From: Deroplatys truncata | Taxonomy: Eukaryota; Arthropoda; Insecta; Mantodea; Mantidae | Length of the DNA: 64,000 nucleotides | Reading direction: 5' to 3' | NCBI GenBank assembly: GCA_030765065.1 | Contig: CM060978.1 | Span: 115,363,692-115,427,691, forward strand | Shown: positions 30,960 to 63,237 of the stretch, piece after piece | Numbering within the stretch: the stretch's first letter is position 1 | Layout of the letters: each line of letters begins with the position of its first letter | The notes under the pieces: model-generated | The model's input: the letters and a program-made list of their open reading frames with translations, nothing else | Database searches by the model: none | What the model was told of the DNA's origin: nothing | Translations under genes and position numbers: made by a program

Positions 30960-31134
30960 TCAGAATCCGGGAAACAAGCCCAGGTGTTTGCTGGGGCCAG
31001 GGAAACACCTTACACACTGCTGACAGAAGAAAATCGTCAAACTCAGGGCCCATTGCTTCGATACAAAAGTGCAACAATGGCGAAGGATACACAAATGCGG
31101 ACAAGAGGATGGAAAATAAGGAAAACAACGAATC

Positions 31135-37560: not shown

Positions 37561-37970
37561 ACAGGTTTTCATGGTATTCGCTCACGTTTAATGGAGACTT
37601 TCCCTTTTATTATAAAGACGCAATCATGGGGAAACACTCCTTTACGACTGATCAACTTCAACTCGTCTTCTCCGAAGTACTTCATGTTTCAGGTTACAAG
37701 GTTGGATTTTTTACCAGCTTAGCCAAGCTTGTACTCAGGAACCGAAAGCTATCCACAAACCTGAGCTTTATATTTCCGACATACTTGGGGAATGAGATAC
37801 AGCTTTCTTCAAAGTTAGGAATTACCTCCACACGTTCAGTTCTACACCCCAACTCCTTAACAATTAAATGAGAATCATATCCACTAACGTTATGAATGAA
37901 GACAGTAATATATTAAGGTATTTTGCAGGCCAAATTGCATTGATTATGAAACTCCTCGGTATTCACCGCT

Positions 37971-38261
37971 AATTGAAAATGAGTTAGTTATCGACGCTCT
38001 TTAAATGCTGTGGTCCATAGCGTCCCATTCTATATTGCGCGTGAAAGACCCATAATTTTGCTCAGATGCCTTTTTATCAGGCTCTTTTACGTGCCGTAAA
38101 TCTACGACAAGGGACCACCGGCTTTACCTCCCTTCCGAAGGAAGCCATGCTAAGGATTTTTACCCCCGAAAGAAATCCATCGCCCTCCGCCGGGTTTGAA
38201 ACCGCGACCTGGGAATTAGAGGCTAGCATGGTAACCTCTAGACCACGGAGGACAATTAATA
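37971..38261 (-). mobile_element. tRNA-derived SINE, copy 3 (target duplication TATTCACCGCT)
   Basis: Reversed SINE with head CCTCCGTGGTCTAGAGG reading from about 38252. TATTCACCGCT, part of the polymerase gene, occurs on both sides at 37960-37970 and 38262-38272. This is a clear target-site duplication inside the copy A polymerase fossil. Confidence 0.9.
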
Positions 38262-38859
38262 TATTCACCGCTGAGTGATCATGGTCACGTACTTTGTCGT
38301 TCTTTTCTATAAGTGGTTTTCCGCACAAGTTGCACAATGTAGAGGAGTCGCAATCCTTTTGCTGTTGATCCGCGAGTTTCAGAGGCTTGGCAGATTTGTA
38401 TACTTATCAATCTTCTTTGCAAAGGATGACACGTATTCCATAAACGTATGAAGCATATAACCGCGATATGCATAGGGTTGCTTAGGAAGACCAGTTTCGT
38501 GCTGTTCAACGCTGGATGACGGCTTGACGTAAACACAGAAGCTCATTGGTTTGTGCTCTTATAAGGGGTTGTATAGGAAGTTTCAGGATTAGTAATGCAC
38601 ATATGACATGGAGTGAGAATATCTCAAAATCCACATACTTTCAGCATTCTCTCAACATTTTTAAACTGTACAATATTTCTCTTTGGTAGGCATAACTATT
38701 CTTGAAATATGTTGGTTACAGATGGATGCATGTCCTTGTAGTTTTTCAGTCCACTGTTCATATTGTTCATTAAAATGTATAAGGCAGCGCTTGCAGGTAT
38801 ATATCAGTTAATGTGTTTTGATTTTCTGACGTCGAACATGCTCCTCAAAATTCTTGATA

Positions 38860-41153
38860 CAGTATATAACATTCTTATTCGTACACTTCAATTTTCTGAG
38901 AAAATACTTTTAATATTTGTCAGAAGACACGGTTTAATTAATATTTTTTTCAAACATATTGAATATAACAAATGCTGTGTTAAGAATTAACTAAATACTA
39001 ACTTATGAACTTACAAAATAAATTAAGTAAAGTTTTAAAAGAAACATGACCATGTATGCACAACTTTTCTATTCGTACATTAGAAGTAATAGTTTAATAA
39101 CAAAGACACCAGAGATAATTAATACTTTGTTGGGTACCCCTTGGCTTTAATAACTGCCTCACACCTTCTCTTCAAAGAAGTAACCAGGTTTTTTCATTCT
39201 TCTGGGCTGATTTTATTCTATTCTTCTTCTTCAATGCCTTTAAGCTCTTGTTTATATTTTATTCTGCTTTTAGGGACTCGTTTCTTCAGAATTGTCTACA
39301 GAGCTCGATTGGATTCAAGGCTGGACTCTGAGGAGCTGTTTGCAGTAGTTTGGGTAAATTCCATATCAACCAATCCATGATCAGTCTTGCTTCGTGTTTA
39401 CTATCATTATACTGTTGAAACCTATAACCAGCTGCTATGCCCATTTTCTGGGCACTCTGCTTTACATTGTTCTGTAAACTGTAAAAATACATACATTTGT
39501 CCATAGTACATCAATAAATTGTATATTACCAACACCGTTGTATGACATGTAGGCCCAGAGCATAATGGAACCACCACCATGCTTAACTGTGGGAAGAGTG
39601 TTTCTGGGGTCATTGTCAGAATTTGCTTTTCTCCAGAATCTGTTTATCCCATCTGACTCAAAGAGGTTTATCTTAGTCCGTCTGACCATATCACGCTGTT
39701 GCAAAAGTTCTGATCCTTAAGGATGTGATCTTTAGCAAATGCAACTCTTTTTTTCCTGTTAGCTGCACTTATATAAGGCTTCTTCCTTGGTGTTTCGTCA
39801 TGGTATCCATACTTCCTGAAGCCGAAATTATAAAGTCAATAATTATCATAATAATCTGGGAAGGATAGCAAATAAAATGAATAATAAAATATTTAAAATC
39901 AGTGCATGTATTAAAAGGAGAAGCATTGGGAAAATTGTTGACTTAAAAGCGACAGAAAGACCAGACAGGCACAGCTTAGCTAATTAGGGACCAGCCCAGG
40001 TATAAAGGGTAAAACCGCGAAGTCAGTTTCTCCTGGAAATAATGGGTGCAGATGCACTGGCCAGGAAGTGAAGGTCACTAGAAGCTTCATGATGCTCAGT
40101 TTTGTTAGAAATTTTTAAGGGGAGAGAGGGGAAGTTAGGAGGTTTTTCTTTGTATCGCGCGTTGATGAGGACACTCTCGCTGAGGCACTCTTGGAGTGCG
40201 GAACAACAGTCTCGTCGAGTTCCGAAGACTGGATGCGAACTTGCAAGAGAGTCGAACGATCAGATGTAATTGATAATCTTGGTCTTGGAAAAGACACAGT
40301 AACATCGTAAGAATTTAAAAGTGATCGGCAAATTTTAAGTCTTATTTTAATGGTGAATAAAAATGTTCCAAGAAAGCGTTCGTGTTTCTATGTACACACA
40401 CTCACGCAAACCCAGTGATTAAAAGTTTCATGCTCAAGCCGCCGTGGCAAAGTAAAAAGAAACAACTAGGAGAAGAAAAGCAGCAATCTTGAGGCAGAGA
40501 TATCTTCATTGTTGGAGGACGTAGCGTGTCTGCTTCATTCCATAACACACGGCGAACTGTTTGGTCAGACATCGTCTTTCCAGACACATTTTCTACTAAC
40601 GGTTGTAATTGAGGAACGCTTAATTTTGGATTCGGCTTCCAATGAAACGTTCCTCTCATGCATTCCGCATTTCTTTAGGTTTTCTTAGTCAATTCTTTGT
40701 AGAACCTAGCTCCCTGAACGTTTTGACTAGTCTGAATGGTAGAATGCGGCTTATTTACTGTTTGTCATATTTTTCTGAGAGAATTCCCTCTAAGTGCCAA
40801 ATTTATATCAGAACTAAGCTCATTTTGCTTACCCATTTCGATCGCTACTGACAGAACGTATACAATTGCGGCCGCAGTAGCCTAAACGATCTTTGAAACA
40901 CGTGCATGTTGAAGCTGTTTACGATGCAGTGGTCATTCTTAACAACTGTACGAATAGGAAAGTTGTATAAAATTGGGGGCTACTTCTTTAACATTGCTGT
41001 TTCATACAATGGTGTAGGTTTTGAAATGCATTTTTTCATTGGAATTAGATTCATCAAGTACGTATAAATGACTCACAGAAACACAAGTTTTTAAGCTAGT
41101 AGAGTATGACTTTTATTGAATATCTGATGTACGAATAAGAATGTTATATACTG
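38860..41153 (-). mobile_element. Tc1-like transposon inserted in the copy A polymerase fossil
   Basis: Inverted ends CAGTATATAACATTCTTATT (left, from 38860) and the same sequence reversed at the right (ending 41153) are flanked by TA at 38858-38859 and 41154-41155. The polymerase sequence resumes exactly at the right flank. At 2294 bp it is longer than a normal Tc1 (about 1.6 kb) because an unassigned segment of roughly 600 bp lies at about 39830-40450. Confidence 0.85.
39130..40836 (-). pseudogene. Tc1-like transposase, broken
   Basis: The minus strand starts MGKQNELSSDIN at 40836, a usual Tc1 start, with short HTH remnants following. After an unassigned interruption the catalytic part reads TKINLFESDGINRFWRKAN (39705-39640), VKHGGGSIMLWAYMSYNGVG, YNDSKHEARL where an NDPKHT-type block is expected, and SPALNPIEL with the usual PDLNPIE motif changed at D. 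Frameshifts and the lost residues show it is inactive. Confidence 0.8.
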
Positions 41154-41345
41154 TATATACGTAGTGATGTTTTCCACTGCTGTCAGTAAATAGTAACAGG
41201 TCACGGTGCTCAGGGAGTTCAGTATCAGCAACCTTCATTGGATACACTTCTTGCTTCTCATCCAGCTCGAAAACGTTGATAGATAGCTGTTAAGTTTCTC
41301 AAACTTGGGTATTTGAGCAAGTGGAGTATAAGTACTGTGAACGTT

Positions 41346-45250: not shown

Positions 45251-46200
45251 AGTAGGATAGATAGGACAGAGCTGGGCCACTTTTTTGCGTTTATATGGGA
45301 AAAGATAGGGAAAACGAGGGGAGATGCTAGGCTAGGAGAGCGTCCAAGGAGGAAAAATGCGTTTATATGGGGGAGATAGGGAATACGAGGAGAGTTGTCA
45401 GGCTAGACAGGGATTGCAAGGGCAGAATGTACGTTTTATACTGGGGAGATAGGGAAAATAAAGGCAGGTGCTAGGTTAGACAGAGGCTGAAGTAGGAGGA
45501 ATGTGATTTATGTGAAAGTGGCAAGGAATACGAGGAGAAGTGCTAGGCTGGTAAGAGGTCGAGTAGAGTATAGTATACGATTATATACGAATGATAGCGA
45601 GTAGATGATAAGGCTAGACAGATACTGATGGAGGGGAATATGAACTTACATACAGGAGAGATAGGGAATACGAGGAGAGGCGCTAGACTAGGCAGGACTT
45701 GAAGAGTAGAATATGACTTGCAATATGGGAGAGATAGCTAACCGAAGAGAGGTATTAGGCTAAGAGGCTTTGAATGCTAGAGTATGCGTTTATATGGATA
45801 GGAGGGGAAAACGGAGAGAGAGCCTATGCTAGGAGAGAGTTGCAGGAGAAGGAAATGTATTTATATGGGAGAGATAGGGAATACGAGGAGAGATGCTAGG
45901 GAAGACAGGGGCTGAAGGTATTTAGGATTTTTTCCAGAAGGGAGGAGCAACAATTTCAGAGCTATTTAGATCACAAGCAGAATGTAACTATTTTGGAAGG
46001 CACTTAGAGGCTTTTTTTCGGGTGCATGTTAAGCTTACTTTACAGGTATTCTGATGGTGTTTTAATGCAGTGGAACAGGCATTGAGCGTCATATTACTGG
46101 CTTTAGAACATTTTTAGACACAGAAACAGGTACGTATTTTAGGGTTATGTTGTAAGCATTTCGAAGATAGTTCAGTCAATGTAATAGGAATTGGCTAACG
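45251..46200. mobile_element. Polinton-like copy B, terminal fragment
   Basis: It begins AGTAGGATAGATAGGACAGA, which resembles the copy C terminus, and continues TTTTTTGCGTTTATATGGGA with terminal repeat units about 70-90 bp apart to about 45915. It then passes into TATTTAGG-type repeats to about 46200, where similarity fades. The 6 bp outside (45245-45250) are TCCATT. No polymerase and no second end were found, so it is a truncated end. Confidence 0.7.
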
Positions 46201-48077
46201 GATGAAAATTCCTCATATTTTCGCGCAAAAGTATGTGAAACATGGCTGAAAGTCTGATTTCCTTAATGTCCCCCGACAGTCTTCCACGTTCTGAAAATTC
46301 TGCATAGGCTATAGGTACTTTTTGGAGGTGGAACAATCATCGATCGGAATGGTGGCGTAACTTGTAAGATAACTACAGTAATAGTTATTTAGAGGACTAG
46401 TTACAAAAGTAGAGGTTTAGTAACGAGAGGCTCAAGTTAGAACACGACCGAAAGGAGTTACTAAACATAATCTGTATCGTGTTGTCTACAATATTTTATC
46501 TACGTTCAGAGTACTTTAGTATATTTTGTATATTTAGTGTATTTAATGAAATTTATTTATTGCGGAAACAACAGCATTCTTTATAAACAGCTCACAAACT
46601 TTTCTACCCGATTATAAATGAAATATAATTAAAATTCATAAACGAAATGGCACTTTAATGCATAAAACAAAGGCACACTCAATTCGTGCCCAGTGTCCAG
46701 CACGTGCCATAGGAAAACAGCATTAGTAGAGGCTCGCGCTGATCGATAAGTTCTTTCCACTTCTATAGTATATTATGCAACAAGATTATAATGGTAGTAA
46801 TTAAAACGCGAGTATTATTATATCATACGAGCGTTTTAATCGCCATTATAGTCAAGTTTCATACGCTTGTTTATTCTCGACCATGTATCTAAACTAAAGG
46901 TTTCATAAGTATTCGTTTCTGGTTTGAGTGAGGTGTTACAATCGTTATTCCTTTATCTATGGTTACAATACAATGACCCTGTAGCACCTGTGTCAAAGTT
47001 GCTAGCGTTGAGAGACGTACTACGCAGAATAATCGATACTTGCGCTTTCGCAATGTTACGTGGCCACTTCTCATTTGTCGAATACCAACACTTTAATGAA
47101 CAGGTGTACTTTAATGAGGTCCATTAAAGTACTGCTACCAGTCGTATAAACACTACATTTTGGCATGGTCGAGCATAAAATATCTTATTCTATTCCTCGT
47201 CTCATACTGATGGATGTGTCGTGTCAAAGACATCGCATCGACGATGCACCTTGGAAGCTGAAGACAGAGAAAACGCAGTCCCATCATCAAATTCAACATG
47301 TGTTGGGCTCATTAAGGTCTCGAGAGGATTTCATAATTATTATTGAAGTACTTCAGTTTATAAAACTCGCCCAGTTATATTAAAACGGACACACACGCGC
47401 AGACACATAGTTTGACAGAATTCAACCGACAAAACGCCAAGGGTTGCGGAGGGATGGTAAAGGAGCACCTGATATGTGACACTGGTCTGTGACAACCAAC
47501 TCTGAAACGTAATTATTTTTCATTTGAATATTCGTACTGATAAATGCAAATAAATAAAGACTTAACACGAATGCGGAATGATTTCCACTCTAATTTTCTT
47601 CTACAAGTGCGAAAATAGTTACCATTTAGGTATTTTCAAAGTTATGAGCTTTGCTTTTTCTGGAAAAATGCTCCGTCAAGGGACAGTGCACAGCTGATAC
47701 CTCCACTTTCACATGGAGAATCATACATATGAGAGACGAAAACAGTTAAGTATATTATTTGTTCACTCTTAAGGCTGGCTCACAACCGCCCGAGAACGGG
47801 ATGCAATGCAGCATACAAGATATTGGTTCACAACAGTCCGGTAACAAGAACAGGAATGCATATAATATCCATCACAAAATGAAAGTCAATTTTGCGCATT
47901 GGAATTTCATTTGTTTTTAACAGGACCAATAATATTTTTGTACCAACTTCTAACTTAGCCAACATATTTCGGGTTAGTCAACGTCAAAATTCGATAGCGT
48001 AAACATTACCTAAATGCATATCCATTACATTTCCGATCCCTCTAGTTGTGCCAAGCCTTGATTCCTTTATTTAATGG
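46201..48077. other. Unassigned DNA with small fold-back sequences
   Basis: Hairpin-forming sequences occur at 46788-46852 (AATTAAAACGC … GCGTTTTAAT) and 47107-47132 (GTACTTTAATG … CATTAAAGTAC). A possible transposon terminal repeat, CACTCTTAAGGCTGGCTCAC, lies at 47765-47790 (see findings). No coding region was recognised. Confidence 0.4.
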
Positions 48078-48083
48078 CATATA
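48078..48083 (+). repeat. Target-site duplication of Polinton copy C, left
   Basis: CATATA immediately precedes the AG terminus at 48084 and is repeated immediately after the CT terminus at 62442. Six base pairs is the known Polinton duplication length. Confidence 0.9.
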
Positions 48084-49545
48084 AGTAGGATATATAGGAG
48101 AGATCGAGCGCAGTTTTTTGCGTTTATATGGGAAAGGATAGGGAAAACGAGGCTAGATGCGACGGTTCAAGGAGGAAAATGCGTTTATATGGGCGAGATA
48201 GGGAATACGAGGACTGACGCTAGGCTAGACAGTGGTAGGAGGAGGAGTGCGCTTTATATGAGAAAGATAGGGAATACGAGGGGAGGTGCTAGGCTAGACA
48301 GAGGCTGAGTAGAGTATAGTTTATATGAGAGGTATAGGAAAACGAGGGGAGGTGTTAGGCTAGACAGAGGCTGAGTAATGTATGGTTTATATGAGTGGTA
48401 TAGGAAAACGAGGAGAGGAGTTAGACTAGACAGAGGTCGAGGAGCTGAGTATGGTTTATGTGAGAGTCATGGGTAAACGAGAGAGGCGTTAGGCTAGACA
48501 GAGCTAGAGGAATAGAGTATGGTTTATATGAGAGGTATAGGAACAGGAGAAGAGGTGTTAGGCTAGACAGGTAGTGTAGCAGTAGGAATATGGACTTATA
48601 TACAGGAGAGATAGGGAATACCAGGGCTGATGCTAGGCTAGTCAGATGCTAAAGGAGGGAGGTATATGCTTTATACGAGTGAGATAGGGAATACAAGGAA
48701 AGATGCTATACTAAACAGGACTTGAAGGGTAGAATATGAGCGATTAGCGAACCGAGGAGAGGTGCTAGTATAGGAGTTTTTAATGATGGAGTAGGCGTTT
48801 ATATGCGAGAGATAGGGAATACGAGGGTCGATGCTAGGCTAGACGGTGTTGAATGAGGGAATGCATCTTATATGAGAGAGATAGGGGAATATGAGGAGAA
48901 GTGCTAGGCTAGTCGGGAAGGTCTGAATGAGAGATTATACGTCTATATGGGAAAAGATAGGGAAAACGAAGGTAGGTGCTAGGTTGAGAGAGTCTTCAAG
49001 GAGGAAAATGCATTTATATGGGTGAGATAGGGAATACGAGGACTGACGCTAGGCTAGACAGTGGTAGGAGGAGGAGTGCGCTTTATATGAGACAGATAGG
49101 GAATACGAGGGGAGGTGCTAGTCTAGACATGGTTTGAGGATTAGAGTATACGTTTATATGGGAGGTATAGGAAAACGAGGGGAGGTGTTAGGCTAGACAG
49201 ATGCTGAGTAATGTATGGTTTATATGAGTGGTATAGGAAAACGAGGAGAGGAGTTAGACTAGACAGAGGTCGAGGAGCAGAGTATGGTTTATGTGAGAGT
49301 CATGGGTAAACGAGAGAGGCGTTAGGCTAGACAGAGCTAGAGGAATAGAGTATGGTTTATATGAGAGGTATAGGAACAGGAGAAGAGGTGTTAGGCTAGA
49401 CAGGTAGTGTAGCAGTAGGAATATGGACTTATATACAGGAGAGATAGGGAATAGGAGGGCTAGACTTCAAAGCGACTTTAGACGTGAACTTAGTGGAAAA
49501 CTGTTTCATGTCAATGTTAGAACGCTAATTCTAGACATGCCCATC
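48084..49545 (+). repeat. Left terminal/subterminal tandem repeats
   Basis: About 18 units of roughly 65-90 bp share the pattern GTTTATATGRGAGRTAGG, then GAATACGAGGRGAGGTG, then CTAGGCTAGACAGAG. A higher-order duplication of about 830 bp is visible: the series starting GCGAGATAGGGAATACGAGG at about 48193 recurs at about 49025 and continues in parallel to about 49440. It is the mirror image of 61065-62442. Short open frames here are not genes. Confidence 0.9.
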
Positions 49546-49557
49546 ACGTAACCTATT

Positions 49558-49735
49558 CAGGGAAAAGGTGACTCGTTCAGGGGAAAAAGGTGACTGCTCA
49601 GGGAAAAAGGAGGCCCACAAAGGGAAAAAGTTGACTAGCAAAGGGAAAAACGTGACCAGCAAAGGGAAAAATGTCACCAGCAAAGGGAAAAAATGCGACC
49701 ACCAAAGGGAAAAAGGTGACCTGCAACGGGAAAAG
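49558..49735 (+). repeat. GGGAAAAA-type iteron array, left arm
   Basis: Eight or nine direct repeats of about 20-22 bp with core GGGAAAAAGGTGACCAGCAA and small variations in the GTGAC part. It is mirrored at 60791-60968. Such short regular repeats next to a replication gene could bind a replication or packaging protein; that role is inference. Confidence 0.9.
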
Positions 49736-49739
49736 CTAA

Positions 49740-50300
49740 CCCACTAACACTAACAGGTAAGTAATTCAGATAGTATTGCAAGAGGTTGACTGGATCATAG
49801 CAGTGTATGATTTCACAGGTAATTCAGCTAGTATCGTATGTTTTTAGGCTAATTCGTCTAGTAACACAGGATAGATTCCAGAAGCTAACTGCATCATAGC
49901 TATGCATGATTTCACAGCTAATTCAGCTAGTATTGTAGGTATTTAGGCTAATTCAGCTAGTATCACAAGAGGATAGATTCTAGGGTTGGGTATAGCTTAG
50001 TGTCGTATTTCACAGGTAATTCAGAGAGTATCGTAGGTATTTAGGTTAATTCAAGTAACATAGGTGTTTAGAGTAATTAAGCAAGCATTACAGGAGGGTA
50101 GGTTCCAGGGGTTGGTTATAGCCTAGTTTCGTATTTTACAGATAGTTCAGGTAATATCGTAAGTATTAGGGTAATCGACATAGCTTCACAGATATTATTG
50201 ATAATTTCGATCAGAGATTTGTATCACAGTTATTTAAGGTAAATGCAGCTGACTCAGGTTGTATCAATGGTATTTGAGTCATTTTAACAGGTAATTCTGA
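49740..50300 (+). repeat. TAATTCAG-type repeats, left arm
   Basis: Repeats of the words GGTAATTCAGCTAGTATCG, GTAGGTATTTAGGCTAATTC and CACAGG with a basic step near 21 bp, less regular near the polymerase. They are mirrored at 60085-60780. The left polymerase frame reads into them through the deletion junction near 50314. Confidence 0.85.
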
Positions 50301-52635
50301 TAGTATCACAGGTGCGATCATAATCTTGTAACAGTTCCAGCTTAATTCCAGTATACAGTAACATGGCGTCCCATGTAAGACCTGGAGAGGTAAAATAATG
50401 GGCAGGATCAACTTTGTGTGTTTTAAGGGTTTGCTCTCTGAACGTCTCAAAGACATCAGCTAGGAGAAGTACATCCGAAGTTAAGTAGAGATCGCTGTAC
50501 TCTCCCAGGTTTCTCACATTAAACAGCTCCCATACATTTCTAGCATGATCGTAGTCAGTATCAGTAATTTCTTCTTCATTTAATCTATTGTAGAAGTAGT
50601 CCTTAGGAGGCAAGCAGGTCTCGTTCAGGACATCCCATGACGTAACAAAATCATAGGGAAATACACCCTTACGGGTCATCAACTTCAATTTGTCTTCTCC
50701 AAAGTACTTTAGCGTTTCAGGATACGAGGTTAGATTTTTTACCAACTTATCCAAGCTTGTACTGAGGAATCGGAAGCTATCCACAAATCGAAGCTTTATA
50801 TCTCCTACATACTTGGTGAATGAGATATAGCTTTCTTCAGAGTTTGGAATTACCTCCACACGTTCACTTGTACAACCCAGCTCCTTAACAATGAAATGAG
50901 AGTCATATCCGCTAAGGTTATGCATGAAGACTGGTATATATTTAGGTGTTTTACAGGCTAAATTACATTCATTATGAAGACTTCCACGATATTCACCGCT
51001 GATGTGATCATGGTCGCGTACTTTATAGTTCTCTTCTGTAAAGGGTTTTCCACACAAGTAGCATGCTGAAGAAGACTCAAAATCCTTTTGCTCTTGATCC
51101 GTAAGTTTCAGAGGCTTAGCAGATTTGTATATGTCATCAATCATTTTTGCAAGAGATGTCAGGTACAGCATAAACTTCTGAGCAGCATCAGCACCACGAT
51201 ACACATAGGGTTGCTTAGGAAGACCAGTTTCGAGATGTTCAACACTGGATGTAGGCTTCACGTAAACACAGAAGCTCATTGGTGTGTGCTCTTGATAAGG
51301 GGTTGTATAGGAAGTTTCAGGATTGGGTGTACACGTATGGCATGGAGTGAGAATACTCTCAAAATCAGCATAGATGACATAAGGTACTTTCAGCATCCTC
51401 TCAACATTTTTAAACTGTGCAATTGCTTTCTCCTTGCTAGGCATAACAACCCTTGCAACACGATGTTGAATACAGACGGCTGCATGTTCTTGTAGTTTTT
51501 CCAGTCCACTTCGTCCATATCGATTATCAAAATGTGTAAAACAGCGCTTGCAGGTATAAACACGTTCATTACATTTAGTTTTCTGGCGTCGAACGAGCTT
51601 CTCAAAATTCCTTATATACACGTAGTGATGTTTTCCACTGCTGTCATTCAATAGTAGCAGGTCGCGATGTTCAGGTAGTTCAATATCAGCAACCTTTATC
51701 GGATACACTTCATGCTTCTCATCCAACCCGAAAACGTTAATAGACATATTGTTAAACTTCTCAAATTTAGGTATTTGAGAAAGTGGAGTAGGGTAGGAAA
51801 CACAGCTGAAGTCGTACTTGTCTTGAAGTTGTTTGTATTTGCTCACACGTTGCGCATCCTTCCCTATGAATTTAGCTAATATAGAGTACATGAAACATTT
51901 ATCGTCGGTAAAGTTCTGAATGTTTATACACGCTTCTTTAGCTCCGACAGATGACGGTAGTGGTATGTAGCTACTTCCTCGTAACGGGTTGTACTTGTTG
52001 ATACGAAGTCGAACTCCTTCCACAGCAAGCAAAGCCCAGCTGCTACCCTTAAGCTGAGACTCCTCCATTTCAGTCACCAATTTCTTGAATTTCACTTCCA
52101 TCGTTGACTCCAGATCAGTTTCCAGGAAAACAGCTTGATTCCGTGTTTTAAATGTTTTGTCACAGGTTTCTCCAATACTGTTAACAAATCGACACTCAGC
52201 CAGCAGATTAATTTTAACACTCTTATGAATGCTAAGCTCTTTATGCACAGCCCGGATTATACGTTGTTTTGCCTCTTGCAGATACATATTTAGGTCCTTA
52301 GCTGATTCGCATCGTATAAAATACGATTTCAATCGTCCTTCGAATGAAGTTTCGTATTCTTTCATATCACAGTCCTCCATTGTTGACAGTAACTGATGTT
52401 TAGTTGGCTCCAATCTTCTTTTCTTCTGAGGGCTGCTTATTTCACATATATCTTCGTGTCGCTGTCCCTTATAACAATCTTTGAAGGTTACATTACAATG
52501 TTTACATTTGAAGAGCTTCTTGCAGCTCATCTCGTGTCTTCTCTTGTCATAACCTCGGAGGAACTTCTTCCCACATTTTCCGCATGCATATCCAGTAGCG
52601 CTTGGAATAATATCCTTATACGCTGAGTTATTCAT
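50284..52635 (-). pseudogene. Protein-primed DNA polymerase B, left arm copy, C terminus deleted
   Basis: A 783-codon open frame identical in layout to the right-arm gene up to residue about 773 (…LELLQDYD). It then runs 10 codons into TAATTCAG-type repeats and stops. It retains two N-terminal CCHC zinc fingers (C18/C21/H34/C38 and C44/C47/H60/C64), a DDKCF/HHYVYI region, a third finger with its final Cys at 388 intact, exonuclease motifs I-III (YADFES, N-L-S-G-Y-D, YLTSD) and an endonuclease-VII-like C-x2-C…DHDH…HNECN segment. Polymerase motifs A, B and C are missing because about 1836 bp are deleted relative to the right arm. The start, ATG at 52635, is preceded by a TATA promoter. The enzyme cannot polymerise; an exonuclease-like fragment could in principle still be made. 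Confidence 0.85.
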
Positions 52636-53300
52636 CTTTATTCTTGATGTAATAACGTATTAATCACTGATCAATGAAATGTAGACCTCTTCACCTTGAC
52701 ACCACTTTAGAAAGCTGATTATTCTTGGAGAGAACACGATGTTAACACCTCAAGACTAATTAGCACAATGAAGTCCAATGCCCTAGATCACCATATTTAT
52801 AGAGGGAGCACGAACCTTTTAGATCAATCATAAACTCGCTCCATAACCACCTGTACATGATCGCTCAACGTGTACTAACCCCCCAGCCATATAACCTCAA
52901 GTCTAGAGACAGGATGTTTATGACGTCACACCCAGAGACAGGATGTCTGGCAGCATCAAACACGTTTAAACTCGTCTCATAACTACCTGCTTATGCTGTC
53001 ACACCAGCAAGAGAAGTATTCCCACACGCTCATTCAGACATATATTTCAAATTCAAGCCCACCACCACCATCACCACCTATTGTACCAAGGTTAATTCAA
53101 GCTGTATTATCACAATACTTAAAAGTAAAAGCTTAAAAGGAAACCTAGAGGATTTTCCCCCTTATTTACTTAATTATTTCATGTTTTTATTCCCTTTTCA
53201 ATTCTTCCTTTCCATCTTCTCACAGAAAGACCATTACATTTCACTACAATCATGAGAAAAGCAATTTTTCCAGAGTTACACAGATTCTAAGCTTCTAAAT
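52636..53300 (-). other. Left 5' leader and upstream region
   Basis: Mirror of 55390-56054. It contains the TATA motif at 52794-52801 and otherwise shows no open frame or element. A run of CACCACCACCATCACCACC lies at about 53060-53080. Confidence 0.6.
52794..52801 (-). promoter_or_regulatory. TATA box of the left polymerase gene
   Basis: TATAAATA on the minus strand, with TTCATTGTG about 30 bp downstream as a possible initiator, about 160 bp before the ATG. The identical arrangement occurs in the right arm. Confidence 0.6.
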
Positions 53301-54060
53301 CGAACCCGGTAATACTTTTAATAAATGTATTTTAGCTCCCCAATATCAGCATCTACCATTTAATCTTTACTCGAACCTGATATGATCCATAAGCTTGAAG
53401 ATATATGAAATCACCCTTCGGGATTCGATCTGAGTACTTTAAAGTAATATTTGTCACGGTAACGATATTTAAGGACTAGATACTCTGTTTGCGTTTACCT
53501 TGACATGTTTATCTAAATTAAATTACGAGTTATTAAATTTTTGCAAGTAAATTTCATTGAATCGGTATTCGAACCCAGAACACCAGGAACAAGATAATTT
53601 ATAATATTAGTCTGACATGTTAAACAAAGTTGTATGCAGTTACATCATCGATCTAAGTGATATATTCTAGTGTACAGAGGAAAATTAAGAAAGTCATTAA
53701 AAAATCGGGAATCGAACCAAGCACAACTGATTGGCAATTATATACAGCATTAATCACCCAGTACAGAACCTATCAATCATGCTTTGCTGCACTCCTCTAC
53801 CTCACTTAGTTCCCGAGATAATGAAAATTTAAAAATTAAGGATCGAACCCAGGACGTCAGGTATCTAATTACACATTTACAAGATACTACCTAATAACAT
53901 AAACACAATAGAGTTTATTTGGCGTCTTTATCTTAATTGGTTTAGGAGTTATTAAATTTATAAGTAAATTCCATCGAATCAGTATTCGAACCCAGAACAC
54001 CAAGAACAAAATAATTTATAATATGAGTTTGGTATGCTTAAAGGTGCTGTATGTAGTTAC
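53300..54060 (-). repeat. Left-arm array of B-box/T-arm-like motifs
   Basis: On the minus strand (toward the left polymerase) motifs of the type GGGTTCGAATMC or GGTTCGATTCC occur at about 53990, 53850, 53715, 53570, 53425, 53370 and 53305. They mirror the motifs from 54699 to 55390 in the right arm. Spacing is about 130-145 bp for the first five. Confidence 0.7.
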
Positions 54061-54631
54061 GATTAAACAGTAGAAATAAAAAGCCGGTTCTGGCCCACAG
54101 AGAGATGCCGACATCTGATAAAGTTCTTTGATCTATGCCGGCAAGCTCCGCCCATTTTATTTCTACTGTTTAATCGCTTATATCTCCTGAATGACAAGAG
54201 ATAGAACATTGGGATAAAAACTAATCAATTCTTTGGAATGCGCCGCGTCATTAGGACCTTGTTCCAAGTGTACCGGGATGCCTGGGTTCGAATCCTAGGA
54301 GTGAATGCAAATTCATCTTCTAATAACTCGGAGACTAATTAAGATAAAGACGCCAAATAAACTTTATTACATTAATGTCATTAGGTAGTTTCTTGTGGAT
54401 GTATATTTTGGTACCTGGTGTCCTGGGTTCGATCCTTAATTTTAAAAACTTTATTATCTCGGAAACTAAGAAAGCTAGAGGAATGGACCAAAGCATGTTT
54501 GATAGCTGTTATAATGTGCAATTAATACTGTATATAATTTTTAATCGGTTGTCTCTAGTTCGAATCCCGATTTTTTAATGACTTCCTTAATTTTACTCTA
54601 TACTCTAGAAAATATCAGTTAGATTGATGCT
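54061..54631. other. Non-palindromic centre of copy C, with a 22-bp hairpin stem
   Basis: GATTAAACAGTAGAAATAAA at 54061 pairs perfectly with its reverse complement ending at 54175; with C54060 and G54176 the stem is 22 bp around a 73-bp loop. To the right, 54177-54631 holds one extra set of three B-box-like units (54284, 54425, 54557) that has no mirror partner in the left arm. Confidence 0.85.
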
Positions 54632-55395
54632 GTAACTACATACAGCACCTTTAAGCATACCAAACTCATATTATAAATTATTTTGTTCTTGGTGTTCTGG
54701 GTTCGAATACTGATTCGATGGAATTTACTTATAAATTTAATAACTCCTAAACCAATTAAGATAAAGACGACAAATAAACTTTATTGTGTTTATGTTATTA
54801 GGTAGTATCTTGTAAATGTGTAGTTAGATACCTGACGTCCTGGGTTCGATCCTTAATTTTTAAATTTTCATTATCTCGGGAACTAAGTGAGGTAGAGGAG
54901 TGCAGCAAAGCATGATTGATAGGTTCTGTACTGGGTGATTAATGCTGTATATAATTGCCAATCAGTTGTGCTTGGTTCGATTCCCGATTTTTAATGACTT
55001 TCTTAATTTTCCTCTGTACACTAGAATATATCACTTAGATCGATGATGTAACTGCATACAACTTTGTTTAACATGTCAGACTAATATTATAAATTATCTT
55101 GTTCCTGGTGTTCTGGGTTCGAATACCGATTCAATGAAATTTACTTGCAAAAATTTAATAACTCGTAATTTAATTTAGATAAACATGTAAAGGTAAACGC
55201 AAACAGAGTATCTAGTCCTTAAATATCGTTATCGTGACAAATATTACTTTAAAGTACTCAGATCGAATCCCGAAGGGTGATTTCATATATCTTCAAGCTT
55301 ATGGATCATATCAGGTTCGAGTAAAGATTAAATGGAGATGCTGATATTGGGGAGCTAAAATACATTTATTAAAAGTATTACCGGGTTCGATTTAG
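54284..55395 (+). repeat. Array of B-box/T-arm-like motifs in three-part 416-bp repeats
   Basis: GGGTTCGAATCC-type motifs start at 54284 (A), 54425 (B), 54557 (C), 54699 (A), 54842 (B), 54973 (C) and 55115 (A), then weaker ones at 55261, 55314 and 55382. A-to-A, B-to-B and C-to-C spacing is 415-417 bp. The unit also carries a word like TTATCTCGGAAACTAAG about 30-40 bp after the motif. The A motif at 54283 can form a T-arm-like 5-bp stem with a TTCGAAT seven-base loop, and the C motifs are followed by T runs of five or six (54569-54576 and 54986-54991). A clear A box was not found. Confidence 0.75.
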
Positions 55396-56054
55396 AAGCT
55401 TAGAATCTGTGTAACTCTGGAAAAATTGCTTTCCTCATGATTGTAGTGAAATGTAATGGTCTTTCTGTGAGAAGATGGAAAGGAAGAATTGAAAAGGGAA
55501 TAAAAACATGAAATAATTAAGTAAATAAGGGGGAAAATCCTCTAGGTTTCCTTTTAAGCTTTTACTTTTAAGTATTGTGATAATACAGCTTGAATTAACC
55601 TTGGTACAATAGGTGGTGATGGTGGTGGTGGGCTTGAATTTGAAATATATGTCTGAATGAGCGTGTGGGAATACGTCTCTTGCTGGTGTGACAGCATAAG
55701 CAGGTAGTTATGAGACGAGTTTAAACGTGTTTGATGCTGCCAGACATCCTGTCTCTGGGTGTGACGTCATAAACATCCTGTCTCTAGACTTGAGGTTATA
55801 TGGCTGGGGGGTTAGTACACGTTGAGCGATCATGTACAGGTGGTTATGGAGCGAGTTTATGATTGATCTAAAAGGTTCGTGCTCCCTCTATAAATATGGT
55901 GATCTAGGGCATTGGACTTCATTGTGCTAATTAGTCTTGAGGTGTTAACATCGTGTTCTCTCCAAGAATAATCAGCTTTCTAAAGTGGTGTCAAGGTGAA
56001 GAGGTCTACATTTCATTGAACAGTGATTAATACGTTATTACATCAAGAATAAAG
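55396..56054 (+). other. Right 5' leader and upstream region
   Basis: Mirror of 52636-53300. It holds the TATA box at 55889-55896, a GGTGGTGATGGTGGTGGTG run at about 55613-55631, and no open frame. A possible initiator, TTCATTGTG, begins at 55918. Confidence 0.6.
55889..55896 (+). promoter_or_regulatory. TATA box of the right polymerase gene
   Basis: TATAAATA lies about 30 bp upstream of TTCATTGTG (possible initiator) and about 160 bp upstream of the ATG at 56055. It is conserved between the arms, suggesting an RNA polymerase II promoter for the polymerase gene. Confidence 0.6.
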
Positions 56055-59000
56055 ATGAATAACTCAGCGTATAAGGATATTATTCCAAGCGCTACTGGAT
56101 ATGCATGCGGAAAATGTGGGAAGAAGTTCCTCCGAGGTTATGACAAGAGAAGACACGAGATGAGCTGCAAGAAGCTCTTCAAATGTAAACATTGTAATGT
56201 AACCTTCAAAGATTGTTATAAGGGACAGCGACACGAAGATATATGTGAAATAAGCAGCCCTCAGAAGAAAAGAAGATTGGAGCCAACTAAACATCAGTTA
56301 CTGTCAACAATGGAGGACTGTGATATGAAAGAATACGAAACTTCATTCGAAGGACGATTGAAATCGTATTTTATACGATGCGAATCAGCTAAGGACCTAA
56401 ATATGTATCTGCAAGAGGCAAAACAACGTATAATCCGGGCTGTGCATAAAGAGCTTAGCATTCATAAGAGTGTTAAAATTAATCTGCTGGCTGAGTGTCG
56501 ATTTGTTAACAGTATTGGAGAAACCTGTGACAAAACATTTAAAACACGGAATCAAGCTGTTTTCCTGGAAACTGATCTGGAGTCAACGATGGAAGTGAAA
56601 TTCAAGAAATTGGTGACTGAAATGGAGGAGTCTCAGCTTAAGGGTAGCAGCTGGGCTTTGCTTGCTGTGGAAGGAGTTCGACTTCGTATCAACAAGTACA
56701 ACCCGTTACGAGGAAGTAGCTACATACCACTACCGTCATCTGTCGGAGCTAAAGAAGCGTGTATAAACATTCAGAACTTTACCGACGATAAATGTTTCAT
56801 GTACTCTATATTAGCTAAATTCATAGGGAAGGATGCGCAACGTGTGAGCAAATACAAACAACTTCAAGACAAGTACGACTTCAGCTGTGTTTCCTACCCT
56901 ACTCCACTTTCTCAAATACCTAAATTTGAGAAGTTTAACAATATGTCTATTAACGTTTTCGGGTTGGATGAGAAGCATGAAGTGTATCCGATAAAGGTTG
57001 CTGATATTGAACTACCTGAACATCGCGACCTGCTACTATTGAATGACAGCAGTGGAAAACATCACTACGTGTATATAAGGAATTTTGAGAAGCTCGTTCG
57101 ACGCCAGAAAACTAAATGTAATGAACGTGTTTATACCTGCAAGCGCTGTTTTACACATTTTGATAATCGATATGGACGAAGTGGACTGGAAAAACTACAA
57201 GAACATGCAGCCGTCCGTATTCAACATCGTGTTGCAAGGGTTGTTATGCCTAGCAAGGAGAAAGCAATTGCACAGTTTAAAAATGTTGAGAGGATGCTGA
57301 AAGTACCTTATGTCATCTATGCTGATTTTGAGAGTATTCTCACTCCATGCCATACGTGTACACCCAATCCTGAAACTTCCTATACAACCCCTTATCAAGA
57401 GCACACACCAATGAGCTTCTGTGTTTACGTGAAGCCTACATCCAGTGTTGAACATCTCGAAACTGGTCTTCCTAAGCAACCCTATGTGTATCGTGGTGCT
57501 GATGCTGCTCAGAAGTTTATGCTGTACCTGACATCTCTTGCAAAAATGATTGATGACATATACAAATCTGCTAAGCCTCTGAAACTTACGGATCAAGAGC
57601 AAAAGGATTTTGAGTCTTCTTCAGCATGCTACTTGTGTGGAAAACCCTTTACAGAAGAGAACTATAAAGTACGCGACCATGATCACATCAGCGGTGAATA
57701 TCGTGGAAGTCTTCATAATGAATGTAATTTAGCCTGTAAAACACCTAAATATATACCAGTCTTCATGCATAACCTTAGCGGATATGACTCTCATTTCATT
57801 GTTAAGGAGCTGGGTTGTACAAGTGAACGTGTGGAGGTAATTCCTAACTCTGAAGAAAGCTATATCTCATTCACCAAGTATGTAGGAGATATAAAGCTTC
57901 GATTTGTGGATAGCTTCCGATTCCTCAGTACAAGCTTGGATAAGTTGGTAAAAAATCTAACCTCGTATCCTGAAACGCTAAAGTACTTTGGAGAAGACAA
58001 ATTGAAGTTGATGACCCGTAAGGGTGTATTTCCCTATGATTTAGTTACGTCATGGGATGTCCTGAACGAGACCTGATTGCCTCCTAAGGACTACTTCTAC
58101 AATAGATTAAATGAAGAAGAAATTACTGATACTGACTACGATCATGCTAGAAATGTATGGGAGCTGTTTAATGTGAGAAACCTGGGAGAGTACAGCGATC
58201 TCTACTTAACTTCGGATGTACTTCTCCTAGCTGATGTCTTTGAGACGTTCAGAGAGCAAACCCTTAAAACACACAAAGTTGATCCTGCCCATTATTTTAC
58301 CTCTCCAGGTCTTACATGGGACGCCATGTTACTGTATACTGGAATTAAGCTGGAACTGTTACAAGATTATGATCAACTACTCATGGTGGAATCAGGTATA
58401 AGAGGAGGTTTATGCCAAGTTTCCCATCGGTATGCTGAGGCTAATAACACTTATATGGATAGGTTTGATCCGTCGAGACCAACCCAATTTATCACATACG
58501 AGGACGCTAATAACCAATATGGGTGGGAAATGTGTCACGCCCTTCCTTTTGGTGGATTTCAGTGGGTGTCGCCTGAAGAAATCAACTTAGAAACACTACA
58601 AGAAGATGATCCTCATGGGTACATATTAGAAGTCGACATCGAGTATCCTGCTGAACTTCACGATCTACACAACGATCTACCTTTCCTGCCAGAGTGTATG
58701 AAACCATTGGAATCATCTACAAAGAAACTGATACCTCATCTTGGACCTCGAAAGAAGTATGTAGTGCATTACATGGCTTTGAAGCAAGCTCTTAGTCATG
58801 GACTACGACTAACAAAAATCCATCGTGTGCTACAATTCCGACAGTCTCAGTGGTTGAAACCTTATGTGGAATTTAACAACAGGCTACAACAAGCTACAAA
58901 TGATTTCGAGAAGGATCTCTACAAGCTCTTTAACAACGCTATGTTTGGAAAAACTATGGAGAACCTGCGTAATCGTATGGATATACGACTGGTGACCAAT

Positions 59001-59705
59001 GAAAAAACTCTAGAGAAGCTGATCGCCAAGCCTACGTTTATCGACAGGACGATATATGCTGATAATCTAGCTGCTGTACATATGGCCTCTCGTCAGATTG
59101 TATTCAACAAGCCTATATACATTGGTATGAGTGTGTTGGACATCTCCAAGACATTAATGTATAACTATCATTACGACGTTTTGTTGCCTTATTATGGAGC
59201 TGAAAACCTGAAGCTTATGTATATGGACACTGATTCGTTCATTCATCGTGTAACAACTGAAGATGTGTACCAGGATAAGCTACGTTTTCTTGAGCATCTC
59301 GATACAGCTGATTACCCTGCCAACCATATATGTTACTCTACTCAGAACAAGAAGGTATTGGGAAAATTTAAAGATGAGGCTAATAGCAAAATCATCCTAC
59401 GCTTTGTTGGACTACGTCCTAAGATGTATGCCTTAGATATTCAAGGGTCAATGATAAAAAAGATCAAAGGTATAAAACGTAGCGCTATTAAGCAGTACAT
59501 TTCGTTTGACAGCTATACAGACTGTCTTAAAACCTGTGAAATCATCAGAACACCTATGAATCTGATCCTATCACGAAAGCATGCTCTTGCTACAGTGCAA
59601 GTGAATAAAATTGCATTGACTCCGTTTGATGATAAAAGAATTATTGCTGAGGATGGCATAACGACATATGCATATGGACATTACGCCATTACAAACAGTG
59701 CTTAA
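56055..59705 (+). pseudogene. Protein-primed DNA polymerase B, right arm copy, full length with one nonsense codon
   Basis: One frame of 1217 codons, including an internal TGA at codon 674 (58074-58076) where the left arm has TGC, and a final stop at 59703-59705. Domains: two CCHC fingers (residues 18-64); a DDKCF (C247)…HHYVYI (H336-337) region that might be a cysteine-protease-like fold; a finger at C362/C365/H384 whose last ligand is Arg388 here but Cys in the left arm; exonuclease I YADFES (D424, E426); endonuclease-VII-like C525/C528, DHDH 541-544 and HNECN; exonuclease II N573-D578; exonuclease III Y717/D721; Pol A DANNQYG (D817); Pol B KLFNNAMFG (K957); Pol C DTDS (D1058, D1060); and KMY (1123-1125). 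This is the Polinton/adintovirus-type pPolB family, which copies linear DNA from a terminal protein. The early stop leaves the polymerase domain untranslated unless read through. Confidence 0.88.
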
Positions 59706-60084
59706 AAGAATGTAAGTTAAAGATAAAGATTTTCTCGTGAGTCTACAATCTTAAAAAAGGTTATCTGTGTGCTGTATATGCAGATAGCTGACGCCTGATG
59801 AAGAAAGAAGAAGATGGAAGGGAAGGTGGTAACCCTGCCATTAGGAGCAATCCTAGTGCTAGTCTCAAGCCTAGACAAAAGGGGAGAGACATCTACAACG
59901 AACTAAAATAAAGGTATGTTGACGTAAAGCTTTTCAATTTGTGAACCAATATGCGGTTTATCCCTCTCCGCATCGTACAATAACTGTTTAACATATAATA
60001 AGTTTGTAAGATTTAGAAAAAAGTATATAAATTGTTGTAACGTTGGATGAGAAATGTTTTATAATTTAATTACTCTCTATATTA
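59706..60084 (+). other. 3' flank of the right polymerase gene with poly(A) signal
   Basis: AATAAA lies at 59907-59912, about 200 bp after the stop. The segment has no open frame. It is wholly absent from the left arm because of the deletion equivalent to 58375-60210. Confidence 0.6.
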
Positions 60085-60780
60085 CCATGAGTACCTGTGA
60101 TACTAGTTGAATTGCCCGTTAAAATGACTTAAATACCTGTGATACTGCTCGAATCAAGTGAAATTACATTAAATAGCTCTGATACGAAACCCTGCTCTAA
60201 ATTAGTACGAGCACCTGTGATACTATCAGAATTACCTGTTAAAATGACACAAATACCATTGATACAACCTGAATCACCTGCATTTACCTTAAATAGCTGT
60301 GATACAAATCTCTGATCGAAATTATCACGAGCATCTGTGAAACTATGCTGATTACCCTAATACTTACGATATTACCTGAACTATCTGTAAAATACGAAAC
60401 TAGGCTATAACCAACCCCTGGAACCTACCCTCCTGTAATGCTTGCTTAATTACTCTAAACACCTATGTTACTTGAATTATCCTAAATACCTACGATACCC
60501 TCTGAATTACCTGTGAAATATGAAACTATGCTATACCCAACCCTAGAATCTAACCTCCTGTGATACTAGCTGAATTAGCCTAAATACCTACGATACTAGC
60601 TGAATTAGCTGTGAAATCATGCATAGCTATGATGCAGTTAGCCTCTGGAATCTATCCTGTGTTACTAGACGAATTAGCCTAAAAACATACGATACTAGCT
60701 GAATTACCTGTGAAATCATACACTGCTATGATCCAGTCAGCCTCTTGCAATACTATCTGAATTACTTACCTGTTAGTGTT
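60085..60780 (-). repeat. TAATTCAG-type repeats, right arm
   Basis: Mirror of 49740-50300, with extra units at 60085-60210 that are missing in the left arm. Words such as CCTGTGATACTA, GAATTACCTGTTAAAATGAC and TAAATACCTACGATAC recur with a step near 21 bp or multiples. Confidence 0.85.
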
Positions 60781-60790
60781 AGTGGGTTAG

Positions 60791-60968
60791 CTTTTCCCGT
60801 TGCAGGTCACCTTTTTCCCTTTGGTGGTCGCCTTTTTTCCCTTTGCTGGTGACATTTTTCCCTTTGCTGGTCACGCTTTTCCCTTTGCTAGTCAACTTTT
60901 TCCCTTTGTGGGCCTCCTTTTTCCCTGAGCAGTCACCTTTTTCCCCTGAACGAGTCACCTTTTCCCTG
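60791..60968 (-). repeat. GGGAAAAA-type iteron array, right arm
   Basis: Reverse-complement mirror of 49558-49735: TTTTTCCCTTTGCTGGTCAC-type units of about 20-22 bp, eight or nine copies. Confidence 0.9.
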
Positions 60969-61064
60969 AATAGGTTACGTGATGGGCATGTCTAGAATTA
61001 GCGTTCTAACATTGACATGAAACAGTTTTCCACTAAGTTCACGTCTAAAGTCGCTTTCAAGTCT

Positions 61065-62442
61065 AGCCCTCCTATTCCCTATCTCTCCTGTATATAAGTC
61101 CATATTCCTACTGCTACACTACCTGTCTAGCCTAACACCTCTTCTCCTGTTCCTATACCTCTCATATAAACCATACTCTATTCCTCTAGCTCTGTCTAGC
61201 CTAACGCCTCTCTCGTTTACCCATGACTCTCACATAAACCATACTCTGCTCCTCGACCTCTGTCTAGTCTAACTCCTCTCCTCGTTTTCCTATACCACTC
61301 ATATAAACCATACATTACTCAGCATCTGTCTAGCCTAACACCTCCCCTCGTTTTCCTATACCTCCCATATAAACGTATACTCTAATCCTCAAACCATGTC
61401 TAGACTAGCACCTCCCCTCGTATTCCCTATCTGTCTCATATAAAGCGCACTCCTCCTCCTACCACTGTCTAGCCTAGCGTCAGTCCTCGTATTCCCTATC
61501 TCACCCATATAAATGCATTTTCCTCCTTGAAGACTCTCTCAACCTAGCACCTACCTTCGTTTTCCCTATCTTTTCCCATATAGACGTATAATCTCTCATT
61601 CAGACCTTCCCGACTAGCCTAGCACTTCTCCTCATATTCCCCTATCTCTCTCATATAAGATGCATTCCCTCATTCAACATCGTCTAGCCTAGCATCGACC
61701 CTCGTATTCCCTATCTCTCGCATATAAACGCCTACTCCATCATTAAAAACTCCTATACTAGCACCTCTCCTCGGTTCGCTAATCGCTCATATTCTACCCT
61801 TCAAGTCCTGTTTAGTATAGCATCTTTCCTTGTATTCCCTATCTCACTCGTATAAAGCATATACCTCCCTCCTTTAGCATCTGACTAGCCTAGCATCAGC
61901 CCTGGTATTCCCTATCTCTCCTGTATATAAGTCCATATTCCTACTGCTACACTACCTGTCTAGCCTAACACCTCTTCTCCTGTTCCTATACCTCTCATAT
62001 AAACCATACTCTATTCCTCTAGCTCTGTCTAGCCTAACGCCTCTCTCGTTTACCTATGACTCTCACATAAACCATACTCTGCTCCTCGACCTCTGTCTAG
62101 TCTAACTCCTCTCCTCGTTTTCCTATACCACTCATATAAACCATACATTACTCAGCCTCTGTCTAGCCTAACACCTCCCCTCGTTTTCCTATACCTCTCA
62201 TATAAACTATACTCTACTCAGCCTCTGTCTAGCCTAGCACCTCCCCTCGTATTCCCTATCTTTCTCATATAAAGCGCACTCCTCCTCCTACCACTGTCTA
62301 GCCTAGCGTCAGTCCTCGTATTCCCTATCTCGCCCATATAAACGCATTTTCCTCCTTGAACCGTCGCATCTAGCCTCGTTTTCCCTATCCTTTCCCATAT
62401 AAACGCAAAAAACTGCGCTCGATCTCTCCTATATATCCTACT
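61065..62442 (-). repeat. Right terminal/subterminal tandem repeats
   Basis: Mirror of 48084-49545, with units ending TCCCATATAAACGC toward the terminus. The last 200 bp appear identical to the left end by eye. A 75-codon frame at 62218-62445 is repeat sequence, not a gene. Confidence 0.9.
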
Positions 62443-62448
62443 CATATA
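62443..62448 (+). repeat. Target-site duplication of Polinton copy C, right
   Basis: CATATA directly follows the CT terminus and matches 48078-48083. Confidence 0.9.
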
Positions 62449-63237
62449 TTAAAGTTGTTTATTCTTCTTGTTTTTATTTTTCACCGGTTTTTGCTGTTCT
62501 TCGAAGCTTTTGCCATTGTTTTTCAGGCAGTAGCCAGTTTTGAGTTGCATATACACAACCTGCAGATGACCCTTTCATCAGAGGAGCCAACGCTCGTTGG
62601 ATTTGCGGGTGTCGGGATCTGAGGTTAGGAAGCACATTAACTACTAATTTCTGCCAGTTTCATGTTGCCAGCTTGCGGCTATAGAGAGCACTAGCGGCGT
62701 TTTCATGACACGGCCGCCTAGAATAATCTCCAGAGTGAAGAGTCTAATATGCACAATATGGATCGTACCCGGGAATGAGAACGAGAAAGTTAAAAGTTGG
62801 GCAAGTGTTCTTTCCCGTTCCCGGAGCCCGGGAAGGCTTCCCGTCAATTGTGAACGCTCTCATTTGAATACACGTATCTCAACTTTTTCGTTTTCGTTCT
62901 CGTTGGTTGTGAACCAACCTTTAGAGTGATCCAAACGTAAACAAAAGATAACGTATCATTTCGCCATTCCCGCCAAGGGTATCGCTGAGTTGTCAGAAAC
63001 ACCTGGCAATTTAAGCGACGAAATGACAAGAGAGCATCACGATTTTTCTCGTAAATAACATGTATAACTTGCATAAGTTAACATAAACATTATTAAACAC
63101 AGATAAGAAAAGAAAGTAGATATTTAAGAAGTGGTTGTATAACAAAAGTAGAAAAATGGGTGTGTCATAACTTAGATTTTATTCCGACTCTGCAAGCGGC
63201 TCTCTTCCCTTCATATCCGAGTCATCAGTATCGGTGT
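62449..63237. other. Mostly unassigned DNA with a possible transposon end
   Basis: GTTGTGAACCAACCTTTAGA at about 62909-62928 is inverted relative to CTTAAGGCTGGCTCACAACC at about 47768-47787 (see findings), and is preceded by TTTTCGTTTTCGTTCTCG. Open frames here have no recognised motif. Confidence 0.4.

Follow-up and report, generated by a model that had tools for sequence, protein, structure and literature searches.

Polintons, also called Mavericks, are regarded as a hub linking viruses, plasmids and transposons, and together with the adintoviruses they are the described systems closest to the element considered here. This element is a palindrome of 14,359 bp (48084-62442) in a 64,000-nucleotide stretch of the mantid Deroplatys truncata (assembly GCA_030765065.1, contig CM060978.1, positions 115,363,692 to 115,427,691, forward strand), which is referred to as a whole as the window. 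With Polintons and adintoviruses the element and its family share a family B DNA polymerase, probably of the protein-primed type, AG...CT ends, a 6-bp target duplication and a length near 17 kb; the same genome also has a complete Polinton with a 6-bp duplication, whose end, starting with AGTAG, is partly similar to that of the family. Unlike Polintons and adintoviruses, however, the palindrome was found to have no integrase, ATPase, protease or capsid gene, as judged in the window copy, and unlike Polintons it has no unique interior, but is nearly all inverted repeat, with two polymerase copies and a hairpin core.

Several other systems are also relevant to the comparison. Hairpin-ended linear replicons include poxviruses, parvoviruses, protelomerase replicons and some mitochondrial plasmids; when they form inverted dimers, the hairpin-telomere junction in the middle is an imperfect hairpin, and the core of the palindrome family resembles it. 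In contrast to these replicons, no hairpin-resolving enzyme was identified in the family, and we know of no hairpin-ended replicon whose dimers enter chromosomes with a duplicated target and reach high copy number as a transposon. The foldback elements FB and Galileo have inverted repeats of great length that contain tandem repeats, as does the present family, which nonetheless differs from them in having a gene inside each arm, and a polymerase instead of a transposase. In the snap-back defective genomes of adenovirus, fold-back copying of the linear genome produces a palindrome whose two ends are of the same type. Snap-back genomes that are fold-back palindromes are also described for adeno-associated virus (PMC8235507). 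The family shares with both the palindrome with the same end type on either side, but here this is the form in which copies usually propagate, with a core that is conserved and polymerase genes that are for the most part open. Lastly, according to PMC11071296 and PMC11071308, bidnaviruses acquired a Polinton-type polymerase and some are multi-segmented; they thus resemble the family in having this polymerase outside the full Polinton gene set, and differ from it in that the element is present in many integrated copies and was not found to contain a parvovirus-type helicase or capsid gene.

Insertion of the palindrome as a single unit

The window element begins with AGTAGG and ends with CCTACT (the terminal sequence of the family is designated the AGTAGGATATATAG end), and is flanked on both sides by an exact copy of CATATA. 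Self-comparison of the window placed the mirror arms at 48079-54060 and 54632-62447, with identities of 99.6% across 3,745 bp and 98.7% across a further 2,237 bp, and global alignment of the arms found 41 mismatches, two of them within the target duplication, plus two 1-bp gaps; chance cannot account for a palindrome this long. The original prediction, made from the bare letters, had given the size, coordinates, ends and duplication of the element as well as mirror arms of 6.0 and 7.8 kb, all of which these comparisons bore out. Two stretches have no mirror image, namely 1,836 bp of the right arm and the central 54061-54631. The latter appears as a 571-bp spacer because about 455 bp of the left arm have been lost beside the core. 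In the copy at C16:647218160-647235392, the palindrome reaches a core of about 70 nt, into which the mirror symmetry continues, and the arms are within 1 bp of each other in length; the asymmetry of the window arms is therefore secondary decay. Overall, the window copy is decayed, with two deletions in its left arm and a stop in its right polymerase gene.

End sequences were fetched for eight further copies, seven of which were read at both ends and one (C3:131) at the right end only. Identical 6-bp flanks were found in all eight elements read at both ends, the window copy included, out of nine tried; the duplications were CATATA, CATGTG, GCTGAT, ACCAGA, GAGACC, TCCAAT, TGCATG and TATATA, of which the last lies within a TA run and is weak evidence, whereas the other seven are outside simple repeats. 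The elements read at their ends were 14.4 to 19.7 kb long. Since all eight carry an exact duplication, integration of the palindrome as one unit, which had been proposed for the window copy, is supported, and two separate insertions are ruled out.

The palindromic family, its core and its polymerase

The search for other copies with the same ends, suggested with the original prediction, covered 4.29 Gb in 818 contigs. Terminal 30-mers of three subfamilies gave 473 + 458 matches (at most 3 mismatches), 149 + 154 (at most 1) and 330 + 329 (at most 3), a total of 1,893, and a 30-mer from the core gave 470 + 428, or 898 (at most 3 mismatches), while the backward sequences, used as a control, gave 0 matches for every end and core pattern. 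The terminal patterns are mutually distant (5, 8, 12), so that no end was counted twice. Half the number of ends (946) is near the number of cores; there is one core and two ends per element, and the family comprises roughly 900 elements. Positions were listed for the first 100 places of each pattern search. Among the 300 listed ends, adjacent pairs less than 30 kb apart converged in 132 of 132 cases (45, 45 and 42), a result that by itself is compatible with any inverted-repeat transposon, and 36 ends were unpaired. The median lengths of the elements between listed paired ends were 16,994, 17,236 and 17,119 bp in the three subfamilies. A listed core was held by 30 of the 132 elements, exactly one in each, and in 18 of these 30 it was within 50 bp of exact symmetry, where random placement would give about 0.1.

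The polymerase genes led to the same architecture. Two genome searches, one using the left polymerase (best 57 of 22,656 candidates scored and listed) and one using the carboxy half of its right counterpart (best 80 of 25,525 listed), together gave 87 distinct loci, which, being the best-scoring matches, are biased toward intact copies; most have an open frame of about 1,225 amino acids. Of these loci, 49 consist of a pair of polymerases, head-to-head in every case. In the first list 15 loci were unpaired, and these were examined, unlike the 24 of the second; in 13, an inverted partner polymerase was located at or near the predicted place, and the other two are deletion derivatives, one with no polymerase in its left arm (C2:146) and one that stops a few bases past the core (C13:139). 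The palindrome is thus the usual form of the family wherever the arms were examined. No relative of the element was found in the viral contigs scanned. Four elements with family ends are only 7.9-8.5 kb long (C2:7021913-7030346, C3:28234685-28242592, C3:183729417-183737949 and C4:143223749-143231641) and may be polymerase-less palindromes; the third has its core almost in the middle, with 4,299 and 4,233 bp to either side. At C1:291345618-291349986, six exact core matches occur inside 4.4 kb, perhaps by tandem amplification of centres.

The core was aligned from the window and 12 of 16 fetched copies, the other four having been dropped by a strict filter. All 13 aligned cores fold with a stem of more than 20 bp and an imperfectly paired inner part, and changes in the inner stem between copies are mostly paired on both sides. 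The DNA fold of the C16:647 core has a z of -9.7 against shuffled sequences, as expected of any long inverted repeat. By its sequence, the core is a conserved, hairpin-forming segment at the palindrome centre. Its flip or flop orientation carries no information, because the arms are alike. The central 115-bp inverted repeat of the window was also considered as an inserted miniature inverted-repeat transposable element, which is ruled out by the central position of a like core in the copies examined.

Each arm has one gene, for a family B DNA polymerase, with its reading direction outward from the centre. Gene content was scanned in the window element only, where the two head-to-head polymerase genes are the sole frames of at least 150 amino acids, in agreement with the earlier claim that only a polymerase is encoded; the next largest ATG frame of the right arm has 86 amino acids. 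No gene for a retrovirus-type integrase, capsid, ATPase or protease was found among these frames and the right-arm ATG frames; the same frame scan of the window element found no hexon gene, and no transposase frame was found in the element. The left polymerase gene is broken by the deletion and the right one by a TGA at 58074-58076. B-box-like GGTTCGA motifs in the inner arms were ruled out as tRNA genes, as the window has no tRNA gene and 47500-63000 has no Rfam match.

The left frame matched Pfam DNA_pol_B_2 (PF03175; 1.5e-14), and an endonuclease VII-like motif in the polymerase was barely above the Pfam cut-off. Relatives numbered 471, the closest named ones being insect proteins of about 50% identity (Halyomorpha, Rhodnius, Nilaparvata); dragonfly polymerases also rank among the closest named relatives. 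A structural model of the carboxy half (mean predicted local distance difference test, pLDDT, 60.8) had phi29 DNA polymerase with terminal protein as its top match (E-value 1.3e-11, template modelling score, TM-score, 0.38), and the next kind of polymerase followed at 8.9e-5. Polinton polymerases, as described in PMC11071308, have terminal protein, vOTU, exonuclease and a palm with TPR1 and TPR2. The modelled phi29-like half and the Pfam match mark the polymerase as Polinton-type and probably protein-primed, and the Polinton-like character read from the window held good in ends, duplication and polymerase alike. The ratio of nonsynonymous to synonymous substitution rates (dN/dS) was 0.23-0.28 between the window and five other copies over about 780 codons, and therefore the gene has been under purifying selection.

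Polymerases of other Polinton lineages gave 152 matches in the same genome. By eye, no head-to-head pair of one lineage was seen among those listed, and at nine such places no inverted repeat longer than 318 bp was present in the 20-30 kb examined; the palindrome is therefore not general among Polintons. A head-to-head arrangement of two different Polinton lineages, each with an open polymerase frame, does occur at C4:11081000-11111000 (L025-L027), where they are about 15 kb apart. Near the polymerase of several lineages (L011, L016, L018, L020, L024 and L026) there is a frame of 276-444 amino acids with the motif CVSFGRCGF or similar.

Arm renewal and the proposed fold-back cycle

The two arms of a copy resemble each other more than the copies do. 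Over 2,349 bp of the polymerase, arm-to-arm differences were 0, 0, 0, 0 and 4 in five copies, compared with 4-7 between copies; in the window copy there were 4 (2,344 bp compared), versus 41-44 against other copies. Each of the five copies had 1-2 variants that were private to it but common to both its arms, and the window copy had 37; variants private to a single arm numbered 0-3 and 4, respectively; in C13:175, the same nonsense codon is found in both arms. Length behaves in the same way. From polymerase to end, the arms of seven copies measured 6,048 to 7,932 bp, a range of 1.9 kb between copies, while the differences within copies were 0, 0, 1, 2, 8, 41 and 595 bp, with a median of 2 bp that was equalled or undercut in only 6 of 5,040 permutations. 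When the innermost 300 bp were compared in 16 copies, counting a gap as one difference, the arms were 0-4 apart in 14 and 7 and 10 apart in two. These results document that the arms of a copy are renewed together, a strong rule but not an absolute one. Within the window copy, 21 of 39 within-arm mismatches are clustered in about 490 bp (60249-60740 versus 49786-50277), likely an exchange tract with another copy.

Our preferred explanation, to which we assign a probability of roughly 60%, is that the window copy is a decayed member of a multicopy, Polinton-derived, polymerase-only transposon that is integrated as an inverted dimer via a fold-back cycle. The extrachromosomal form would be a linear duplex of about 8.5 kb with one open AG... 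end, used for protein priming, and one end closed by the core hairpin; a displaced strand folded on itself would be an equivalent starting form. The polymerase would start at the open end, displace a strand, pass the hairpin and return along the other strand, and the product would be a palindrome of about 17 kb, open at both of its AG ends, with the core in its middle. An integrase from outside the element, most likely that of the complete Polintons of the same genome, would then insert the palindrome with a 6-bp duplication, and both arms of the new copy would descend from one parental arm. A possible helper is the Polinton at C12:235867764-235885013, which is flanked by the 6-bp duplication AACGCC, has a 122-bp inverted repeat starting with AGTAG and encodes an integrase that contains rve and a chromodomain; an integrase like this one may act in trans. 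That the free form has a hairpin, that a protein primes synthesis, that replication passes the core and that integration occurs in trans are all inferred from the integrated copies. Fold-back is favoured because one step covers the insertion of the whole, the co-renewed arms, the single core and the sole polymerase gene.

Several observations weigh against this explanation. The free hairpin molecule has not been seen, only the integrated form being known, and the AGTAG common to the family and one Polinton end is a short match. The arms of one of the seven copies differ by 595 bp in length, over the inner 300 bp each arm is strictly closest to its own partner in no more than 10 of 16 copies, the arms of C11:193 look chimeric, and the core is off-centre by 66 to 4,244 bp in 12 of 30 elements; the off-centre cores and unequal arms are read as later indels. 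On the side of the polymerase, the carboxy-half model is modest (pLDDT 60.8, TM-score 0.38) and this half has no Pfam match, the amino half has no structural match at an E-value of 0.001 or lower, and a sequence profile search of the PDB with the carboxy half and full-length relatives returned zinc fingers only (best E-value 0.0045).

The main rival explanation is gene conversion between arms, which could likewise yield arms that are alike and so counts against fold-back. The palindrome of 17 kb would then move as an open-ended, Polinton-like unit, and conversion in the chromosome, or mismatch repair of a cruciform, would keep its arms similar, an account that we consider possible but doubtful. 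Frequent conversion would also produce identical arms and shared private mutations, and patchwork exchange is indeed seen in C11:193 and in the 21-mismatch patch of the window. However, the large one-sided deletions of the window were not repaired from the opposite arm, and conversion would have to equalise lengths that vary by up to 1.9 kb between copies to within 0-8 bp in five of seven copies. It is improbable that the element instead stems from a multipartite virus comparable to bidnaviruses, as the polymerase-bearing segment in integrated form, with the capsid genes located on other segments. The polymerase is the sole gene found in the element, as such a segment would have it, and the bidnaviruses offer a precedent; on the other hand, hundreds of genomic copies with Polinton-type ends and 6-bp duplications suit a transposon, and neither a relative in the scanned viral contigs nor a parvovirus-type helicase or capsid gene within the window element was found, companion segments being outside the search.

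The original prediction had suggested that the palindrome is an integrated snap-back defective genome. The fold-back idea itself fits, and the window copy alone, with its palindrome, 6-bp duplication and broken genes, would agree with a one-off event of this kind; the isolated defective genome, however, is ruled out by the genome-wide counts (1,893 for the ends, 898 for the cores), which put the family at about 900 elements, and by the polymerase genes, which in the listed copies are paired and mostly open. An assembly artefact from folded or missed-adapter reads is very improbable as well. Long palindromes are difficult to assemble, and those described here are known from the assembly and not from raw reads, but eight elements have different 6-bp duplications, arms carry private differences, a conserved, non-palindromic core occurs at one place, and the flanks are clean on both sides. 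For the window in particular, a fold artefact is strongly disfavoured because the same architecture recurs elsewhere with other flanks, arm lengths and sequence.

The window copy in detail and the significance of the family

The features of the window copy are collected in Table 1. The outermost 1.2 kb or so of either arm is an array of repeats of about 70 bp with a strong GC skew.

Table 1. Features of the palindromic element in the window
Feature	Position	Strand	Evidence
Left target-duplication copy, CATATA	48078-48083		sequence
Left arm, lacking 1,836 bp (deletion at 50315/50316) and about 455 bp next to the core (deletion at 54060/54061)	48084-54060		
Left terminal array, tandem repeats of about 70 bp	48183-49403		
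Left polymerase gene (791-aa stop-to-stop frame), cut short by the 1,836-bp deletion	50284-52659	-	
Core, imperfect hairpin; palindrome centre in intact copies	54061-54175		
Right arm, the fuller one; its 54176-54631 has no partner in the left arm	54176-62442		
Right polymerase gene, amino part, terminating at TGA	56031-58076	+	
Right polymerase gene, carboxy part	58077-59705	+	
Stretch of 1,836 bp missing from the left arm	58375-60210	+	arm alignment
Right terminal array, tandem repeats of about 70 bp	61123-62273		
Right target-duplication copy, CATATA	62443-62448		sequence

Other sequences of interest are found in the same window. At 45251-45918, 2.8 kb from the palindrome, lies an orphan end of the third subfamily, whose terminal 30-mer is an exact match (C4:115408942) and has no partner within 30 kb among 100 listed ends. 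Decayed polymerase fragments with several stops, at 37617-41327 on the minus strand, have about 81% DNA identity over part of their length and are an older relative. Frames that, judged by eye, resemble parts of a long terminal repeat retrotransposon are located at 30405-34169.

No description of palindromic Polintons was found in the full-text literature, a search to which repeat databases and most subscription journals did not belong. The family shares the polymerase type, termini and duplication of Polintons and fails their other defining features, and it is a real possibility that it forms a class of its own. We regard the chances as evenly balanced that these hairpin-dimer elements represent a new class of transposon, in which a genome closed at one end would be copied around that end in each cycle by its own protein-primed polymerase, and the palindrome, not the monomer, would be inserted by an integrase borrowed from Polintons. 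If true, such an element would connect Polintons, linear plasmids and hairpin-ended viruses, and would reveal a new route by which linear, protein-primed DNA persists in chromosomes. The family is a high-copy and apparently recently active relative of Polintons that has neither virion genes nor an integrase and is palindromic with a hairpin core. Its roughly 900 natural dimer junctions offer material on fold-back replication, the stability of long palindromes and trans-mobilisation in an animal genome. The architecture of the family, nearly all palindrome with a polymerase gene on each arm and a hairpin-like centre, suggests that its members propagate by fold-back copying, which turns a single arm into a doubled, mirror-symmetric unit.

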